The position numbers and the translations under genes were made by a program. A stretch of DNA of 64,000 bases from Flexithrix dorotheae DSM 6795 (GTDB taxonomy: Bacteria; Bacteroidota; Bacteroidia; Cytophagales; Flammeovirgaceae). Below the pieces are notes generated by a model that was not told the DNA's origin, made no database searches, and saw only the letters and a program-made list of their open reading frames with translations. The stretch is taken from assembly GCF_000379765.1 (NCBI RefSeq), contig NZ_KB903454.1, positions 186,001 to 250,000 on the forward strand. The letters are read 5' to 3'. Below, one piece after another: positions 34,987 through 49,044 of this stretch. Position 1 is the stretch's first letter. Each line of letters begins with the position of its first letter.

Positions 34987-37900
34987 ATGAGCAAACTAAA
35001 AAAATTCGGAACATTTGGTGGCGTTTTTACCCCCTCTATTCTTACCATTCTGGGGGTAATCATGTATTTAAGGCTGCCCATGATTATTGGGGAATCAGGC
35101 TTAATGGCTACTATTGGTATTATTGTAATTGCACATATTATTTCTGCCACCACCGGGCTAAGTGTTTCCTCTATTGCCACCGATAAAAAGGTTGAAGCAG
35201 GAGGTACTTACTACATGATTTCCAGGAGTTTAGGATTGCCCATTGGAGGCACTTTAGGACTTGCACTTTTTGTTGGGCTTTCCTTCAGTGTCAGTTTATA
35301 CCTGATAGGATTTTCGGAGAGTTTTTTAAATTATTTCGATTTTGAAGTAACTAAGGATGCCATTCGGATAACAGGAACTTTAATACTGATTGCAGTAACT
35401 ACCATTACTTTTATAAGTACTTCATTGGCCATAAAAACACAGTACTTCATTATGGCTGCCATTATTTTATCCTTAATATCCATCATCTTTGGGCAGCACG
35501 AATATCAGCCTACCGAACCATTAATTTCTTCTAATTCATCCACAGTGCCCCTAATGGTTTTATTTGGAATCTTTTTCCCGGCAGTAACGGGGTTTGAAGC
35601 AGGAGTTTCCATGTCGGGGGATTTACAGGATCCTAAAAAATCTATTCCAACTGGTTCGATCAGTGCCATAATAGTAGGATTTGTGGTTTACATTGCCCTG
35701 GCTTTTTTCTTTTCATACACGGTGGATGCCAATTTACTGGCCAATGATTCTCAGGTTTTATTGAAAATTTCCTGGATTCCCCAGTTAGTGGTAGCCGGAA
35801 TTTGGGGCGCCACTTTATCATCTGCATTAGGGAGTATTTTGGGAGCGCCAAGAATCCTGCAGGCCACTGCAGTGGATAAAATTAGCTGGAAAATATTTGC
35901 AAAAGGTGTTGGTGCTTCCAATGAGCCCAGAAATGCACTTTTGCTCACTTTTGCTATTGCCGAGTTCGGAATTTTGATAGGAGAACTGGATGTAATCGCC
36001 AGAATCGTTTCAATATTTTTCATTACTACTTACGGATTCTTAAACCTCAGTTGCGCTTTTGAGGCCTGGACCAGTGCCGATTTTCGTCCGGAGTTTAAAA
36101 CCCCTATCTGGGTTAGCTTACTTGGTGCAGTTGCCTGTATCATTGTAATGATTCAACTGGACTTTTTGGCTATGCTGGGAGCAACTTTAATTCTGGGGGC
36201 TTTATTCCTTTTCTTAAAAAGAAGGGAACTGAACCTGGAATCGGGAGATGCTTGGAGTGGAGTTTGGGCCTCTCTGGTAAAAACCGGTCTGGAACGCCTT
36301 GATCAGACTAATCTGCATGCCAGAAACTGGAGGCCAAATATCATCATGTTTAAGGGAAAGGATGAAGCCAGGCCTCATCTGGTAGAAATGGGACAGGCTG
36401 TAGCAGGGAAACTGGGCATTTTAACAGGATTCGAACTCATTCAGTCTGATGGAGAAATGTTGGCTAAGGCTAAGCCAATTCTTACCGAAGGAGCCACCAA
36501 AGGAAGATACTTTAATCACAAGCATTTTTGCAAAGACATTTATTCGGGGATTGATGAAGTATCCCGGCTCTACGGATTTTCCGGAGTACAACCTAACACC
36601 GTATTAATGGGTTGGAGCAAACAGGAAAAAAATAAGGAAAAGTTCGTGAGTGCAGTTAAAAGTTTCGAGCTCAATAATTACAATGCCATTTTCCTACATT
36701 ACCAGCCTGAAAAGAAATTTGGGGCACACAAAACCATAGATATCTGGTGGAGTGGTATGGGAAGGAACCTGGCTTTAAGCATCAACCTCATCAGGCATAT
36801 CACTTCCGGAGACCAATGGAAATCCGTAAAAATTCGACTTTTGGTAATAGCCAATGTCTCTTTTCAAAAAGATACTGTATTTAAATCTATTGAAAAAATC
36901 CTGGATAATTACCGGGTAGATATGGAAATAAAAATCATTAATAATGCGGTAGATAAATTACCGAAACCTGAAATCATTTTAAATGAATCGGGAAACACAG
37001 ACCTTACGGTAATTGGGATACAGGATAAACATTACCAAAAAATAAATGAAACCATTGCCGAAATCAATCACCTGATCAATCATCTGGGAACTACCCTAAT
37101 ACTACACGCATCCAGCTCTTTTGAGGAATATTCCCTTGGTTTTGAAAAAGAATCTAACTTATTAAATCTGGCAGATAGTTTTGGCCAGGAAATACTGGTT
37201 TTGCCCGAACTCCAGCAATCCAAATATCCAGTGATCAATAACGAAGTCAAAAAAATTGACACCAATGGTCAAAAAGTTTTGGAACTCTTATTTCAGAAAA
37301 CATTTGTTCCCTATTTTCAGGAAAATGCCAGGTTAAATAAAGAGCTGGAAACCGTAACTTCTGCCTTATTTGGTTTGTTGAAAAAAGCAATCGCCTACAA
37401 AGATTCCTACAGAAGAACCCGGGCATTTTACAAAGCCAAAAATGATTTCTATTTCAGGTCAAGGAAATTGCTAGAAAGTTTGCAGAATCAGGCCTTAGAA
37501 CAGCAGAGGGAAGCCTTAACAAACGGAATTAACTGGTATATTTCCAGGTTGAAAAGTGATATTTTAAGATTTCCGAAAGGATTCAATGTGCCTTTTAATA
37601 AAGAGGATTTTATGCTGAAAAAAGACGATCCATTTGGATTAAAAACCCTTAAAATACGAAAAAGAGCAGGTAATCCTTTTGCCAAGCACAGCATAAATTT
37701 ACTGATTAGTTACAGGCAAATAGCCAGATATTATTTGCAGGACAATAGATTTTTGTTTTTTAATGCCTTCCTTGAAGAATTCGACAGACTTTCGATGGAA
37801 TATTTATCGGGAATTAAAAAGTTCAATAATCTGATAAATGATCTTTTTGATGAACTGGAAAAGAAACTTTCTACAGAAAGTGGCACCTCCATTTTGGAGG

Positions 37901-40098
37901 AGAAAAAAGCAGCCATTGAAAGCCTTACTCAAAACCTGATTGAAAATCAGGGAAAAGATATGAAATTGTTTCAGAACCGCTTACAGGTAGAGTTTAGGAA
38001 AAACCTCCAACTTATGGTAAGCAGTATGGAACAACTGAATATCAATACATTAATCCAAGAAAAACGTAAGGGAAAAACCTTTTATAAAAAACTGGAAACC
38101 GACATCACTGATTTTCCCGAGGTATGGTATGAGGAGGTGAACAATTTCACCAATAAAATCTTCCTGGAAACTGTGATGGCAGGCACAAAAAGCAGGATAA
38201 AGGAAGAAATGGACGATTACCTCAGGGAAATGAATATGCTTCTTGATAATAAGGTAATTAAGGAAATTGAGGCGGTAAAGAAAACGGTAAAAAAGAGCTC
38301 GAATGAATCTTTGCCGGAACTAAAACTGGATTTTGAAAGTGAATCCATTAACCTGCTACATGGCTTTGCTGAAAAACAGGAAGAAATTGGAAAATTAATC
38401 CAGTCACTTCCGGAATCTATTACCATCGCGTCTCCTTCAATTTCTGAGCACACTTCCCTTACAGGACAAAAATCCGAGAACCAAATGGATGAAGTGGCCA
38501 ATATTCCAGCGGCCAGAATCACCAATCATTTTATGGAATCCAGGTTTTTTGGGCCAACTCAGGATTATTTTGAAGATGTAAATGAAAGCATTAAAAATAA
38601 AATGCTGGGCATTAAAGACCATTTAAGTCTGATGAGGTTTAATATGGAAAACATTGATGCTGAAAATGATGATGTCGGAAAAACCAATGGCGATATTAAA
38701 GAAAGAACACTCCAAAAAATTCAATCAGAAGAAAATGAATTGAAGGAAATCAAAAGTGTACTACATCAAAAAATACAGGAAAATATTGAAAGTGCTTTTC
38801 AGCCTTTAACATCTTATACGATTGTAGAAAGTGCAGGGGAATTTGTGCAGTTCTTAAGAGACTATCAAAGCAAAAGAGTGCTTTCGAAATTTGGAGCTTT
38901 CAGGGAGGAGATTAAGGAAACTATCAGAAATTTTTCTGCAAAATTATTATATTCCAGAAGCGGGGGAATTTTGCTGGCCAAAAAACTAATTGAAGATGAA
39001 CAACTTCGACCACTTAATGGCAAAATTCTGGATTTAGTAGAGGTGGTCAGTCCGGATGCAGAAGTGTTGGCTAACCTTCCTCATTATTACAAAAATCTAT
39101 TCAGTGGCAGGTCCAGTATCAGTGACGATTTTTGGATCTCCCGAAAAAAGGAAGAAGAGTTGTTGAAAAAATCCTTCAATCGCCTGCAAAGAGGTGTTCC
39201 CGGAGGAGTATTATTATTGGGAGAGCGCAATTCTGGTAAGACGGCCTTTTGTCGACATATCAGCACAAAGTTGTTTAAAAAAGAAAAAACATTTCACATT
39301 TTTCCTCCAAAATCAGGATCAGTACATTCAAAGGATTTTGTGAATACCATTCAGGAAGTCACCCAGATTGACGGACCTTTGGAGCTAATCCTCAACCGGG
39401 TTCCTGCAGGCTCGGCATTCATTATCCACGATATGGAAATGTGGTGGGAAAGACAACAGGAAGGATTGGAAGTAGTCCTTTTGGTAAAGCAATTGATTTA
39501 TGATTATGGCCACAAGTTTTTCTTTTTGGTGAATATGAATCCTTTCACTTTTGAGCTATTAAATCAACTTTGCACCTTTCAGGAGAGTTTTACGGAAGTT
39601 ATGCGTTTTACGCCATTTGATGCGGAAAGCCTGAAAAACCTGGTCATTTCCCGTCATCAATCCAGTGGGATTAAATTTAGCCTGAATGAAAAATCAGAAG
39701 AGGATATTTCTGAAATAAAAATGGCGAATTTATTCAATAAGTTTTTCAATTATTCTCAGGGAAATCCGGGAGTTGCCCTCAATACCTGGATTTCTGCCAT
39801 AGAAAAGGTTTATCTCAATACCATAGAAATTGTACCTCCTGAAAGCCCAGAAATAGATGTACTGGATAAAATGAAACCTGAATGGCTTATCATACTGGAA
39901 AACTTTATCCTGCACAAAAGACTCACCTATCCGAAATTAAGGAGAATTTTGGGCATACCACAGGAAGAAATTAAAGATTTAATTGAAAACATTAAAAGGA
40001 CAGGCCTGGTGGAGGAGAATAAATCTGAAATTCTCATTATTAATCCCTATGTGGAGTTCTTAATCATCAAAATTTTAAAACAAAAAGGAATTATTTAA
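34987..40098 (+). CDS. SLC12-like permease fused to a helical region, P-loop ATPase and winged-helix-like end
   Basis: 1703 residues. Residues about 1-430 form a permease of the cation-chloride cotransporter (SLC12) branch of the APC superfamily, with GVFTPSILTILGVIMYLRLP at the start and GGTYYMISRSLGLPIGGTLG in helix 3. From NWRPNIIMF (about 447) an SLC12-type C-terminal domain runs to about 730. A long charged helical region (about 760-1370) with several coiled coils follows. The P-loop is GERNSGKT (1412-1419), with a Walker B-like IIHDMEMWW (D1482), and the end (about 1630-1700) looks like a winged helix (LTYPKLRRILGIPQEEIKDL). Ordinary bacterial members end after the second domain. An MscS-like gene follows after 3 bases. 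Ion specificity is unknown; K+/Cl- is a family-based guess. Confidence 0.88.
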   Translation: MSKLKKFGTFGGVFTPSILTILGVIMYLRLPMIIGESGLMATIGIIVIAHIISATTGLSVSSIATDKKVEAGGTYYMISRSLGLPIGGTLGLALFVGLSFSVSLYLIGFSESFLNYFDFEVTKDAIRITGTLILIAVTTITFISTSLAIKTQYFIMAAIILSLISIIFGQHEYQPTEPLISSNSSTVPLMVLFGIFFPAVTGFEAGVSMSGDLQDPKKSIPTGSISAIIVGFVVYIALAFFFSYTVDANLLANDSQVLLKISWIPQLVVAGIWGATLSSALGSILGAPRILQATAVDKISWKIFAKGVGASNEPRNALLLTFAIAEFGILIGELDVIARIVSIFFITTYGFLNLSCAFEAWTSADFRPEFKTPIWVSLLGAVACIIVMIQLDFLAMLGATLILGALFLFLKRRELNLESGDAWSGVWASLVKTGLERLDQTNLHARNWRPNIIMFKGKDEARPHLVEMGQAVAGKLGILTGFELIQSDGEMLAKAKPILTEGATKGRYFNHKHFCKDIYSGIDEVSRLYGFSGVQPNTVLMGWSKQEKNKEKFVSAVKSFELNNYNAIFLHYQPEKKFGAHKTIDIWWSGMGRNLALSINLIRHITSGDQWKSVKIRLLVIANVSFQKDTVFKSIEKILDNYRVDMEIKIINNAVDKLPKPEIILNESGNTDLTVIGIQDKHYQKINETIAEINHLINHLGTTLILHASSSFEEYSLGFEKESNLLNLADSFGQEILVLPELQQSKYPVINNEVKKIDTNGQKVLELLFQKTFVPYFQENARLNKELETVTSALFGLLKKAIAYKDSYRRTRAFYKAKNDFYFRSRKLLESLQNQALEQQREALTNGINWYISRLKSDILRFPKGFNVPFNKEDFMLKKDDPFGLKTLKIRKRAGNPFAKHSINLLISYRQIARYYLQDNRFLFFNAFLEEFDRLSMEYLSGIKKFNNLINDLFDELEKKLSTESGTSILEEKKAAIESLTQNLIENQGKDMKLFQNRLQVEFRKNLQLMVSSMEQLNINTLIQEKRKGKTFYKKLETDITDFPEVWYEEVNNFTNKIFLETVMAGTKSRIKEEMDDYLREMNMLLDNKVIKEIEAVKKTVKKSSNESLPELKLDFESESINLLHGFAEKQEEIGKLIQSLPESITIASPSISEHTSLTGQKSENQMDEVANIPAARITNHFMESRFFGPTQDYFEDVNESIKNKMLGIKDHLSLMRFNMENIDAENDDVGKTNGDIKERTLQKIQSEENELKEIKSVLHQKIQENIESAFQPLTSYTIVESAGEFVQFLRDYQSKRVLSKFGAFREEIKETIRNFSAKLLYSRSGGILLAKKLIEDEQLRPLNGKILDLVEVVSPDAEVLANLPHYYKNLFSGRSSISDDFWISRKKEEELLKKSFNRLQRGVPGGVLLLGERNSGKTAFCRHISTKLFKKEKTFHIFPPKSGSVHSKDFVNTIQEVTQIDGPLELILNRVPAGSAFIIHDMEMWWERQQEGLEVVLLVKQLIYDYGHKFFFLVNMNPFTFELLNQLCTFQESFTEVMRFTPFDAESLKNLVISRHQSSGIKFSLNEKSEEDISEIKMANLFNKFFNYSQGNPGVALNTWISAIEKVYLNTIEIVPPESPEIDVLDKMKPEWLIILENFILHKRLTYPKLRRILGIPQEEIKDLIENIKRTGLVEENKSEILIINPYVEFLIIKILKQKGII

Positions 40099-44142: not shown

Positions 44143-47100
44143 TTAAAATAAAAACCCAAACCTTAGGAAGGGTAACCAGCTTTCTTCTTCTGAAAATGAA
44201 AAGTCGAAGGCAATTACTGTTTTATCGAAGGGAGCCATCCAAAGCCCTACACCTTTGCCATTATGCCATTTTATGGAACTTCCATTTTCGGTAGAAGGAT
44301 CATTATCTACCCATACTCTTCCTAGATCGTAAAATCCATTTATTCCCACCTGAGCGTTGATAATCAAACTTCTGAGATTGAATAACTTAAACCTGATGTC
44401 ATTATTCCAATAGAAACTTTTATCACCCGAAAACCTCATTCTTCTGTGCCCCCTAAGGTTTCTTAATCCACCTAGTTTATTGGATTGGTAAATATCCTGA
44501 TAAGAACCAAAATTCCAGGCCGTTCCTACTCTGGTGGCATAAACAGTCCTAAATCGGTGACCAACTCCTAAGTACAGTGCAAGATTCGCCCTTAAATGTT
44601 CATAATTAATTTCGTTAGGTGTGCCTTCCTCATTTTCAGTTTCCCGAATACTTCCTCCAACCAGGTTAAAATAAAATCCTCTAAAGGGTAGATGTTCATT
44701 ATCCCTAAAGTCCATTTCCAAATTCGTGTAAGCACCAAGATAGGATTTTTGCTTTCCCAGAATATTATTTGCAGCTTCTTCCCCAACTGTTTCTATGTAT
44801 TCATTGTAGAGGTAACGATTTGGAAATTCATCCCTTTCATCCCTTAATTCGATACTCCTGTAGTAGCCTCCAATTGAAAGTTCAATTTTATCTTCCAGCC
44901 ATCTTTTTCTTAAAGAAGGGAAAAACTCGATTTGGTTATATCTCACTGCATAATATCGTTTCCCTTTTTCCTCAATTTCATTTTTTGTTTCATTGCCCAG
45001 TCCATAGAAAAAATCCACAAAACTTGGTGATTTAAAATCAGCCAATAATACCAAATCCAAAGACCCCAGCAACTCAATGAATTCTCCATCATACTGCAGA
45101 TTAAATGAATTGGTTTTTGGAGCCCAATTACCCCGAACTTGGTGCTTTTGTTTAAATGGATCTTTTCTAAAACCGTAGGATTTGCTTAAAAATCCGGCAC
45201 CAATAAAAAGCCCATCATCCGGGTTGAAATTAAAGTAGGCTAAAGGACCAAAAAAATTATATTGAAACTCCTCTCTGTTATATTCATTAACTTCGCTTTT
45301 ATTGCTTAATTCATTTCGGCTATCCTTCCCAAACTCAATTTCATTTTTATCTTTTTTGTCATAAATATAGGTATGATCCCAAATACCTTTCACGTTCGAT
45401 TTATTGGTAATCCGGTCAAAATCCTTTCCCCCAATTATTCTTACTATTATGCCTTTGTTCACCTCTCCTTCCAGCTCAAACCTGTCTTCTCCATCAAAAC
45501 CATACAACCGGATTTCTTTCGTTTCATTTTTAAGAAATACCCTGTCATACATTTTGTGTTTGCGCTCTCCATCTTTCTTAATTTTCCAAACCCTTACCCT
45601 GGTCTTTTCATCATCAAGTCGTTCTACTTTAAACAATTCGTGCTTATCACTGCCTAATACATTCACTTCCTTTGCCAGAGAAAGATACAGTAATTTGGAA
45701 GATTCCTTCAACCCATCTCTTCTGGATTTCAATTTGGAAATGATCTCCTCCCCACTGTGTTGGTAAATTTCCGGAGGAAATCCTTTAATTGCAGCTTCAA
45801 TAATGGAGTCAGTCATAATTTCCTGAATTTTCTCCACTTCCTCCATCCAGTCCTGCAAATCAGGTTCTGTCAGGAAAGACCTGTCGAAATACCTGGCATT
45901 GAAGCCCATGCCTGCAGGGTCCCTAATTTCATGTTTAAACCCCTGAAACTTCCTCATTCCCCATTTTCTTGTTCCAACAGCCATGACCAGCCCATCAGCA
46001 TTAAAAAAAGCCTGATCCCTGTCTCTGGGAATGGGTTGGTACATTTTAATACCTTTCTCTTTATCTTCAAATGTAGCCCATCTCCATTGGTCCTCATGCC
46101 TGTCCCAGTCTCCAATCCACAGGTCAAAAATCCGGGATTTTAGCACATGTTTTTGATCTATAATATCGTCATTATCCTCCCTAGTCTTTTTTATGGTTTT
46201 GGCTGTACTTTCAATCTTTTTGGAATTCCCGAAAAAGTCAGCATCCCGCCAGTCATCATCCGGTCTTTCTTCATACAAATACAAACCATCCTTATAATCT
46301 TCTCTGTAAATCCTGAACCTGGGATCATCCGGTAAATAGACCAGTTGGGGATTGGTATGATAAACACCCAAAGGGTTGGCCAAAGCAGGAATGACCAGGG
46401 CGCCATAGGGATGGGAGCCGGAAATTTGGTCCTCTACTACATCTGCAGCCAGGGTTCCTCTTAGTTCAATGGGAACGGCAGCCTCCGGGTATTTTTGAAT
46501 GGACCTTAAAACATATTGTTTTTCATTTTCTGCTTCCATTCTCAGGGAAATGGTCTGCATTCCCCCTCCTCTTTTTAAGATTTCCAATCCTCCATGTTCT
46601 TTTCCAATATCAAAAACAGGCACATTATTAATTTCCTGAGCCCATTCGGTTCGATAGTTTTCTCCAAAAAAGAATTTCTTTACTTTCCCAGCAGTTAACA
46701 TTTTTGTGGCTGCTTTTTCTAACTTTTTACCCGAAAAATCGATATTTGAATACTCCTCATTTGGTTTTTGAAGTGGTTTGGGCTGAACCATTAGCTTGGT
46801 TCTGAAAATCAGATCTCCAGCAGAACCATCTTCATTAGGATTATAAAAAGACAACCAAACATCACCACTTTCATGGAAATCAATTCGGGAAAAACCTTTT
46901 TTGGCATAAGCAAACTGAGCTTTGGGTTTGTGCTTCACAAAGGTTTCTTTACTTCCTGCCCCGCTTACAATATAATGTGTATTTCCCTGAGGAAGATATT
47001 GCAGACTATGATCATGACCAGCCACGTAAATTAAATTTGGATGGGCATTAAAAATACTTTCAAGATTATCTTTCAGAGACTGGTAATTTGGATGGGGGAT

Positions 47101-47937
47101 ATCCTGAATATCTCCAAATTTGGTTCTGTATAAAACAGCTGCTGTTCCAATAAAAGGAAGCGGGAAATATAGGTTCTTCTTATATTCTGTTAAGGGGAAA
47201 AGGTGATTTTTAAGTGGTGCATGTCCTCCGTGCAATCCATTACTGTAAAAAGGATGATGACCAGCTACAATGATTTTTTTATCCTCATGTTGCTTCACAA
47301 GGTCATTCAGCTGAACTAAAAACTGATCCTTGTCTGAAGCCTCACAACCAGAGTCTTCGCCCGGTTTTTCATTATAATGAAGCCACCATTGGGTATCAAT
47401 TAGAATTAAAATAATATCCTCACTGATTTCGATTAATTCCGGTCCGGGACAGCCATCATTTGGCAGGAAGGTTTCCCCATCACTATCCTCCAGATAATTC
47501 TCTACAAACTCTTCCTGGTATTTCACTCTTTGCCAGCCTGTTTTCCCTCCCTTTGCCCAATCGTGGTTACCGGGCACAAAAAACTTTTTTCCTTTAAAAT
47601 TTTTGACTAATTCTAATTGCGTTTTAATTCTTTGCTCCGCTTCTGACCTGTCAGGATGTGTCTCTTCCGGTAATCCTTTTGGATAAATATTATCTCCCAG
47701 AAAAAGGATTGATCCCTTTTCTTCCACATCATCCATTTGGGATTTCAGTAATTGAAATGTAGGCTCAAGAGGATTTTCTCTGGCATACCCGGCATCACCA
47801 ATAAGAAAAACGGTATGATATATATCGTTTTCTTTGGGGGCTGAAGATTTCCAGTTTTTCGCCTGATTATTGTAATAAGGGCCTTTTGGTGAACAAGAAT
47901 AAAATAGTAAAAATACAAAAAGGACAAAAGGTTTCAT
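44143..47937 (-). CDS. Lipoprotein joining a metallophosphoesterase and an outer-membrane beta-barrel
   Basis: 1264 residues from the chosen start at 47937, which gives a lipoprotein signal with the Cys at residue 15 (LLFYSCSP); the longer in-frame start at 48021 would place 28 residues ahead of it. The calcineurin-like phosphoesterase (about 40-340) has FLIGDAG (D48), LGDNIYP (D82), VPGNHDW (N124, H125), AGHHPFYSNG and AGHDHSLQ, so the dinuclear metal site is complete. A middle region (about 400-870) contains an RDRDQAFF motif. The C-terminal part (about 880-1264) consists of amphipathic strands ending in a Phe (FGFLF), resembling a BamA/TamA-type surface-antigen barrel. Placement at the outer membrane is expected; the substrate is unknown. 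Confidence 0.85.
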   Translation of the reverse strand: MKPFVLFVFLLFYSCSPKGPYYNNQAKNWKSSAPKENDIYHTVFLIGDAGYARENPLEPTFQLLKSQMDDVEEKGSILFLGDNIYPKGLPEETHPDRSEAEQRIKTQLELVKNFKGKKFFVPGNHDWAKGGKTGWQRVKYQEEFVENYLEDSDGETFLPNDGCPGPELIEISEDIILILIDTQWWLHYNEKPGEDSGCEASDKDQFLVQLNDLVKQHEDKKIIVAGHHPFYSNGLHGGHAPLKNHLFPLTEYKKNLYFPLPFIGTAAVLYRTKFGDIQDIPHPNYQSLKDNLESIFNAHPNLIYVAGHDHSLQYLPQGNTHYIVSGAGSKETFVKHKPKAQFAYAKKGFSRIDFHESGDVWLSFYNPNEDGSAGDLIFRTKLMVQPKPLQKPNEEYSNIDFSGKKLEKAATKMLTAGKVKKFFFGENYRTEWAQEINNVPVFDIGKEHGGLEILKRGGGMQTISLRMEAENEKQYVLRSIQKYPEAAVPIELRGTLAADVVEDQISGSHPYGALVIPALANPLGVYHTNPQLVYLPDDPRFRIYREDYKDGLYLYEERPDDDWRDADFFGNSKKIESTAKTIKKTREDNDDIIDQKHVLKSRIFDLWIGDWDRHEDQWRWATFEDKEKGIKMYQPIPRDRDQAFFNADGLVMAVGTRKWGMRKFQGFKHEIRDPAGMGFNARYFDRSFLTEPDLQDWMEEVEKIQEIMTDSIIEAAIKGFPPEIYQHSGEEIISKLKSRRDGLKESSKLLYLSLAKEVNVLGSDKHELFKVERLDDEKTRVRVWKIKKDGERKHKMYDRVFLKNETKEIRLYGFDGEDRFELEGEVNKGIIVRIIGGKDFDRITNKSNVKGIWDHTYIYDKKDKNEIEFGKDSRNELSNKSEVNEYNREEFQYNFFGPLAYFNFNPDDGLFIGAGFLSKSYGFRKDPFKQKHQVRGNWAPKTNSFNLQYDGEFIELLGSLDLVLLADFKSPSFVDFFYGLGNETKNEIEEKGKRYYAVRYNQIEFFPSLRKRWLEDKIELSIGGYYRSIELRDERDEFPNRYLYNEYIETVGEEAANNILGKQKSYLGAYTNLEMDFRDNEHLPFRGFYFNLVGGSIRETENEEGTPNEINYEHLRANLALYLGVGHRFRTVYATRVGTAWNFGSYQDIYQSNKLGGLRNLRGHRRMRFSGDKSFYWNNDIRFKLFNLRSLIINAQVGINGFYDLGRVWVDNDPSTENGSSIKWHNGKGVGLWMAPFDKTVIAFDFSFSEEESWLPFLRFGFLF

Positions 47938-48147
47938 CCTGTAGGGAAAATGGGACAAAAAAGAATAATGTGAACCAGAATATTTAAATGAAAAAGTCTC
48001 AAAAAGTGCTCTTCTATTCATCCGCTTAAATAATTGTAATATCCGAAATGGGGAAAAAACGCATCTTCAGGTCCCCTTTAGCCCTATTAGATTTAAATCT
48101 TCCTAAACACAATTTCAATCAAAAAAAATTCATTTTCGCAAATTACA

Positions 48148-49044
48148 TCACTTTTTATTTTCCTGATAATTAAACTTTAATATATTCCCTTTTCCGTCTC
48201 TGCCTTCATTGGAAATGTACAATGTACCATCCTCCTCAAAACAAATCCCCTCTGGTTGTTTAAAAATATCATTATCCAATTTCTTAGCTTTCAAAAACTT
48301 TCCTTTTGGAGATAATCTTAGCAATAATTTCCCTACTGTTCCCAAAACATAAATTTCCTTAGAAATGGGATGAATAGCGACCCCTGAAGGTGCAAAATCA
48401 ATCTTTTTTCCAGCCCTTTTTGATAGTTCCCTCTTGTCTATTACAAACTTAGGTTCCGGATTCAGTTCAAATCTATCCAAATCAAATTCAAAAATACTTT
48501 TGGTATAATAAAAAATTTCATTGATACCGGCTTGTCCTTTGCAGGCTAGTAAAAGTACATTTCTATCCTTGTCATAACACAATCCTTCTACATCATTTCT
48601 GTCATTCAGTTGAGTTTGCTCGTATTTAACTTCCCTGTTTTCCGACCTAAAGTTTTTCACAACAAATAATCTTCCATCGCTTCTAATGATAAAAGCATCT
48701 TCCCCTATAATCTCTATATCTTCATAATCTCCATCACCTGCAAACTTAATTTTTTCTACAATCTCTTCCTTCTTTACATCATAAATAAAGATATCACCCT
48801 TTTCATCCTGCACACAGGCAAACTCATGATTTCCCAGATAATGAATCCCTGATATTTCTTTTAATTTTTTATCTATTTTATACTTCTTATCCGGATCCTT
48901 GAAATCATACTTAAAATCATCCATTACTTTTCTGGTTTTCATCACTGGTATTTCTTTTTTCCCCTCTTGAAGTTCTGATTCTTTCTGGCATCCAATTAAG
49001 AAAATGAAAAAAAATAACAGTATCGTTTTATAAAAAAAATCCAT
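48148..49044 (-). CDS. SdiA-regulated-type lipoprotein (phytase-like propeller)
   Basis: 298 residues with a lipoprotein signal peptide (FFFIFLIGCQKE, Cys at about 19). The domain (about 55-295) matches the SdiA-regulated family: ISGIHYLGNHEFACVQDEKG, FAGDGDYEDIEIIGEDAFII, EGLCYDKDRNVLLLACKG and PEGICFEEDGTLYISNEG. It has the repeated strands of a beta-propeller and is distantly related to phytase-type propellers. The biochemical role is not established for the family. It lies 126 bases upstream of the metallophosphoesterase-barrel gene's longest frame (210 bases from the chosen start), same strand, so joint expression is possible; the two lipoproteins may both act on phosphorylated compounds, which is inference. 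Confidence 0.86.
   Translation of the reverse strand: MDFFYKTILLFFFIFLIGCQKESELQEGKKEIPVMKTRKVMDDFKYDFKDPDKKYKIDKKLKEISGIHYLGNHEFACVQDEKGDIFIYDVKKEEIVEKIKFAGDGDYEDIEIIGEDAFIIRSDGRLFVVKNFRSENREVKYEQTQLNDRNDVEGLCYDKDRNVLLLACKGQAGINEIFYYTKSIFEFDLDRFELNPEPKFVIDKRELSKRAGKKIDFAPSGVAIHPISKEIYVLGTVGKLLLRLSPKGKFLKAKKLDNDIFKQPEGICFEEDGTLYISNEGRDGKGNILKFNYQENKK

Follow-up and report, generated by a model that had tools for sequence, protein, structure and literature searches.

A predicted kinase fold between a metallophosphoesterase domain and an Omp85-type barrel in Flexithrix dorotheae and its relatives

Among described Omp85 proteins, those closest to the gene considered here form the "Metallo" subfamily, which Heinz and Lithgow (2014; PMC4104836) catalogued as carrying PF00149 and named metalloprotease; in the main text of that catalogue, so far as it was available to us, the word kinase is absent and the middle domain is undescribed. 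Since it was catalogued in 2014, the fusion of a phosphoesterase with an Omp85 barrel was already known, PF00149 being the calcineurin-like phosphoesterase family of Pfam. A second point of reference is CotH, a bacterial kinase of the fold discussed below that acts in outer cell structures and for which the accessible part of the source gives the catalytic variants D228Q and D251A (PMC7821199). Here, we analyze a gene from a stretch of 64,000 nucleotides of Flexithrix dorotheae DSM 6795 (contig NZ_KB903454.1, positions 186,001–250,000; hereafter, the window). The open reading frame (ORF) occupies positions 44143..48021 of the minus strand, i.e., 1292 codons from the first ATG plus a stop, and its product combines PF00149 with an Omp85 barrel, so that it very probably belongs to the same family as the "Metallo" subfamily.

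The window protein consists of three domains with predicted folds, namely, a metallophosphoesterase, a kinase fold, and an Omp85-type barrel; both sets of site residues are conserved almost completely in three-domain relatives, and several neighboring genes recur. We lean, with some reservation, toward an arrangement in which the barrel holds a kinase-fold/phosphatase pair that faces the periplasm and acts on a shared envelope substrate. Residues are numbered throughout from the first ATG, and all features of the protein lie on the minus strand.

The middle domain and its conservation

The kinase-fold domain spans residues 445–785 (45667..46689), as delimited by the predicted model, structure matches, and free-standing copies. 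In the window protein, no Pfam family matches the middle stretch of about 450 residues between the Metallophos and ShlB matches. The AlphaFold2 model of residues 430–890, built from 82 sequences, has a mean predicted local distance difference test (pLDDT) score of 93.5 and a predicted template modeling score of 0.92, and displays the two lobes of a kinase. All nine Foldseek matches against PDB at E ≤ 0.001 have the kinase fold (CtkA, CotH, YihE), the best being CtkA (E 2.0e-5) and CotH (4.9e-5); the next ones are Rio2, ADCK3, Golgi casein kinase, and PI4KII. Likewise, the 50 rows listed by VIA-align 2 are kinase-fold entries without exception, including PI4KII-beta (Z 14.8; 261 residues aligned, 4.5 Å), CotH (Z 14.7; 255 residues, 4.2 Å), CtkA (Z 13.7; 232 residues, 4.5 Å), HipA (Z 11.5), and PI3K/PIKK (Z 11–12), with model residues 1–355 covered. 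On the strength of the model, we consider a kinase fold highly probable. A preliminary description, made from the sequence of the window, had already singled out some 500 residues with an RDRDQAFF motif between enzyme and barrel; the region is real, whereas its identity as a kinase fold had been missed.

The modeled order of elements is also kinase-like: three strands, with the Gly-rich loop GGG485–487 (46561..46569; alignment and model) between the first two, followed by helices, a strand, further helices, and the catalytic and metal motifs. The putative catalytic loop DWDRHEDQWRW (638–648; 46078..46110) overlaps a GDWDRHxDQW stretch that aligns, weakly by sequence, with the kinase catalytic loop. 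In weak sequence alignments, the CtkA motif DRHNGNW falls on DRHEDQW, while hhalign places, also weakly, the CotH motifs NWD on DWD and PWD on PRD. The latter lies within the putative metal motif PRDRD (665–669; 46015..46029), and the RDRDQAFF motif would accordingly read as the downstream metal motif of the kinase fold, a placement suggested by alignment and conservation. D640 and D667, which these weak alignments place on the CtkA and CotH motifs, are candidates for the catalytic and metal aspartates, respectively; D638 is as conserved as D640 and may be the catalytic one instead. R506 is situated on a strand, where a weak alignment sets the strand-3 'YVLK' of HipA_2 on 'YVLR', and K510, four residues further, is equally conserved. 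The PADLOC candidate defence model PDC-M03A also matched the catalytic-loop stretch (residues 619–650, E 5.3e-4); we attribute this match to a shared motif and do not count it as evidence of a defence role.

Two sets of relatives were used. A contig scan seeded with the catalytic motifs gave at least 80 named loci, and all scan counts below are among the matches listed. A profile search of 296 sampled genomes of the phylum, representing 140 genera, found the middle domain in 114 genomes and 63 genera. Of these genera, 60 contribute a single locus each to a genus sample; the other three were omitted, being the genus of the window itself, one already represented, and one whose locus lies at a contig edge. 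In the scan set, most kinase sites are kept in 80 of 81 rows, the remaining row being a gap. Because the scan seeds are the catalytic motifs themselves, this near-invariance is biased, and we therefore quote the genus sample. There, G486 of the Gly-rich loop and R506, K510, D633, D638, D640, R641, H642, Q645, D667, D669, and G677 are kept in all 35 three-domain genes, G485, E584, R630, P665, and R668 in 34, and D644 in 31. Of the 27 genes lacking the phosphatase domain, 20 retain D640 and 19 retain D667. The alignments comprise 81 of 82 usable relatives (A2), 79 of 80 (A3), and 95 of 98 (A4); duplicate locus L112 was omitted from each of the first two and three scan rows from the last, and for A2 and A3, matches shorter than 380 residues, or lacking a barrel where one was needed, had been set aside beforehand.

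Among 38 close genomes, 24 contain a match to the window protein, a count that includes partial matches and the window genome itself; the scan records are nearly all titled Bacteroidota, with single ones titled Chlorobiota, Rhodothermales, and Thalassovita. The last of these (L041), a metagenome-assembled genome whose title is probably wrong, carries a 71%-identical gene of the Bacteroidota type. The 88 loci L041–L128, i.e., the 80 listed scan loci and eight from the profile search, hold 73 three-domain genes (in six of which the phosphatase match is split in two), 16 with kinase fold and barrel, four with the kinase fold alone (fragments counted), and one fragment with the phosphatase alone. 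The 60 loci of the genus sample contain 62 genes with the middle domain: 35 with three domains, 26 with kinase fold and barrel, and one with neither partner. As it is found free-standing, without phosphatase, and without barrel, the middle domain is a separate, mobile unit. Locus L032 (4129–9148) carries three adjacent free-standing kinase-fold genes of 518, 540, and 570 residues, lacking both phosphatase and barrel.

Phosphatase domain, barrel, and N-terminus

The metallophosphoesterase domain of the purple acid phosphatase/TRAP-like type occupies residues 67–421 (46759..47823), as judged from Pfam, sequence matches, and site residues. Pfam Metallophos matches residues 72–271 (2.3e-8), and the best relatives by sequence among solved structures are purple acid phosphatases and TRAP. 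All eight expected site residues are present (D76, D110, Y113, N152, H153, H255, H336, and H338), which bears out the complete calcineurin-like metal site proposed earlier, where D76, D110, N152, and H153 were numbered D48, D82, N124, and H125. The ligands include the tyrosine of GDxxY (Y113), a pattern typical of the purple acid/TRAP type. The complete set of eight is present in 33 of the 35 three-domain genes of the genus sample. Of the 66 three-domain genes in the scan set, 26 lack at least one of the eight but have an intact kinase motif (one is the split frame L066); since the set was chosen by its kinase motif, the loss of phosphatase residues is the only informative figure here.

The presence of a C-terminal Omp85 barrel, which the preliminary description had proposed for its residues 880–1264, is virtually certain. 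Structure prediction, suggested there as the check, yielded a 16-strand barrel (residues 923–1292; 44146..45255): the model of residues 430–1292 (80 sequences) has a pLDDT of 92.8 and places the strands at 923–1288. Foldseek matches it to Sam50 and BamA (both E about 3e-11) and VIA-align to BamA (Z 26.6) and TamA (Z 25.9); Pfam ShlB matches residues 1139–1260 (3.7e-6), and NCBIfam Omp85_fam matches residues 1014–1292 (2e-25; 90.2 bits, below the cut-off of 200). The barrel includes R1196 and the motif LRG (1189–1191), the RG[FY]-type motif of Omp85 loop 6, with R1190 kept in 79 and G1191 in 78 of 81 relatives. Between the kinase fold and the barrel lies an all-strand linker domain at about residues 786–888 in the models (45358..45666); no POTRA domain directly precedes the barrel, residues 785–887 consisting of strands throughout in confident models.

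The true start is probably Met29 (47937), the start used previously, from which a compact signal peptide leads to a lipobox cysteine at residue 15 (Cys43 of the full ORF; 47893..47937). The lipobox reported earlier is thus present. By pattern match, it was found in five of 66 three-domain scan relatives and none of 15 two-domain ones, a rarity that marks lipidation as a local addition. Acidic residues after the lipobox cysteine can serve as a surface-export signal, and none was seen in the SPKGPYYNN that follows this one.

Gene neighborhood

Directly upstream of the window gene, on the same strand, lies a gene for an SdiA-regulated (phytase-like propeller) lipoprotein (48148..49044), which recurs as a family neighbor according to Pfam matches and neighbor counts. 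An SdiA-regulated propeller gene is located directly upstream on the same strand in 29 of 66 three-domain scan loci, and an HD/PycTM gene lies at most two genes away in 45 of 66; 14 scan loci without the phosphatase have HD/PycTM in two cases and the propeller gene in one, within the retrieved stretch. The genus sample has HD/PycTM nearby in 28 of 35 three-domain loci and eight of 25 others, an SdiA-regulated gene in 16 and eight, respectively, a nucleotide cyclase in eight and four, and PPK1 in five and five. PPK1 is thus near 10 of 60 loci in 10-kb windows, vs. about 0.1–0.3 by chance (our own estimate, at 1–2 PPK1 per 5-Mb genome); these 10 are not all independent, because common descent can leave the same gene order in related genera. 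The genome that contains the window has one PycTM match and two PPK1 matches, all on other contigs, so that the linkage to HD/PycTM and PPK1 fails there and only the SdiA-regulated gene is adjacent.

The conserved neighborhood around the family (loci L041–L120 and L187–L246) also includes class III nucleotide cyclase, histidine phosphatase, and PAP2 genes beside HD/PycTM, the SdiA-regulated propeller, and PPK1. Elsewhere in the window, a 1703-residue ORF on the plus strand (34987–40098) has an amino-acid permease as its N-terminal part, followed by weak SLC12 and AAA_16 matches.

Proposed arrangement, alternatives, and known systems

In the arrangement that we favor, an Omp85-type barrel would hold at the outer membrane, on its periplasmic face, two enzyme-like domains, namely, a purple acid/TRAP-like phosphatase and an atypical kinase fold of the CotH/CtkA/PI4KII/HipA kind. 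One polypeptide would thereby phosphorylate and dephosphorylate a common envelope substrate, be it protein, lipid, or glycan, and the upstream propeller lipoprotein would probably take part. We infer both the catalysis and the common substrate. Omp85 barrels have their N-terminus on the periplasmic side, and as the enzyme domains are N-terminal to the barrel, the periplasm is their default location. The middle domain is somewhat more likely than not to be an active phosphotransferase of some kind.

Several observations weigh against this arrangement. Significance with any kinase family was not reached by sequence profiles (Pfam, hhalign, solved-structure sequences): hhalign gave P 0.018 for CotH, 0.022 for HipA_2, and 0.34 for HipA_C, compared with 0.058 or more for each of eight unrelated controls, and a search of solved-structure sequences with the A2 profile ranked CtkA first but weakly (E 0.064, DRH aligned on DRH), falling to E 0.15, level with an unrelated protein, when a wider profile was used. 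Neither the CotH family profile (PF08757) nor the HipA-like ones (PF07804, PF20613) matched the window protein or appeared among the best 25 of the 43 families weakly matched by 82 relatives. Sequence comparison by itself does not prove the kinase assignment, which rests on structure prediction. Further, the strand-3 lysine of kinases appears to be replaced by a conserved arginine (R506) and the metal asparagine by Gln645. At least two of the eight phosphatase residues are lost in 25 of 66 scan relatives (one being the split frame L066), so that the pairing of the two activities is not universal. D640 or D667 is missing in 10 of the 27 genes without the phosphatase domain, some of them truncated, and a paralogue in the same genome (L002:1192–4863) has a broken phosphatase site as well as an altered catalytic loop, with glycine at position 640 and asparagine at 645; hence, some members of the family probably lack this kind of catalysis. 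Finally, ATP (adenosine triphosphate) is not known to occur in the periplasm.

The substitutions at strand 3 and at the metal asparagine, the degenerate motifs of those 10 genes, G640 of the paralogue, and the expectation that ATP does not occur outside the inner membrane would all suit a pseudokinase, or a kinase fold with other chemistry such as transfer of adenosine monophosphate, as reportedly in SelO, serving recognition or scaffolding beside the phosphatase. Eleven putative active-site residues are, however, retained together in all but two of the 35 three-domain genes of the genus sample, which is hard to explain without chemistry, and we regard this alternative as possible yet rather unlikely. 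Like that of PlpD (type Vd), which also lies C-terminal to its enzyme, the Omp85 barrel might instead export the enzyme domains to the outside, where they would act on phosphate compounds; this option was raised for the "Metallo" subfamily by Heinz and Lithgow (2014; PMC4104836), in the part accessible to us. Surface display, or assembly of a secreted domain, was also the suggestion of the preliminary description, and it finds no support here because no POTRA precedes the barrel, the acidic export signal is missing, and few relatives have a lipobox. Export would, moreover, require two large domains and a linker to cross, and the N-terminus of Omp85 barrels is generally held to be periplasmic; we deem such export improbable. 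Even slimmer is the prospect that the barrel works as an insertase or translocase and that the enzyme domains only regulate it via phosphate turnover: it does match BamA, TamA, and Sam50, with LRG kept in most relatives, but it lacks a POTRA for substrate handling, and free-standing kinase-fold genes exist.

As for the barrel-held enzyme pair, a bolder version, for which we see little probability, is an envelope phosphorylation switch, in which a barrel-anchored periplasmic kinase with a non-ATP donor, possibly polyphosphate from the PPK1 encoded nearby in some lineages, would be opposed by the phosphatase of the same chain. If true, it would constitute a system of reversible phosphorylation of outer-membrane components widespread in Bacteroidota. 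An active middle domain would raise the questions of how an outer-membrane kinase obtains phosphate and what it marks, while an inactive one would define a large family of outer-membrane pseudokinases.

CotH (PDB 5jda, 5jd9), a spore-coat kinase, shares the fold of the middle domain and, in a weak alignment, has its Asp motifs in the same order; it also acts outside the vegetative cytoplasm, a likeness that depends on the location we infer for the window protein. The latter differs in having no Pfam CotH match and in carrying a phosphatase, a strand linker, and a barrel in addition. The fold is also shared by HipA-like kinases and by CtkA of Helicobacter pylori, along with a weakly aligned DRHxx[NQ]W loop, whereas CtkA has about 300 residues, neither barrel nor phosphatase, and Asn where the window family has Gln. 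The PI4KII lipid kinases, tied with CotH for the highest Z score, are eukaryotic and only 10–12% identical, and the fold does not reveal the substrate. Both activities reportedly reside in one bacterial polypeptide in the isocitrate dehydrogenase kinase/phosphatase AceK, which is said to be cytoplasmic, to use one active site for both, and to have no barrel, unlike the window protein. A metallophosphoesterase of Riemerella is likely a different protein, because a review, in the part available, lists it among type IX effectors. PlpD resembles the window protein in the fusion of an enzyme domain to an Omp85 barrel and differs in that the enzyme is a patatin, is exported, and is accompanied by one POTRA domain, according to the accessible part of the catalogue (PMC4104836). 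No published report of a kinase domain in Omp85 proteins was found in the open-licence PMC literature, which is weak evidence of absence. The nearest relatives remain the "Metallo" proteins, which, like the window protein, carry PF00149 ahead of an Omp85 barrel, as far as the catalogue could be consulted; compared with it, the predicted kinase-fold middle of the fusion would be new, and whether or not that domain is active, the 2014 description as metalloprotease plus barrel needs correction to phosphoesterase, kinase fold, and barrel.

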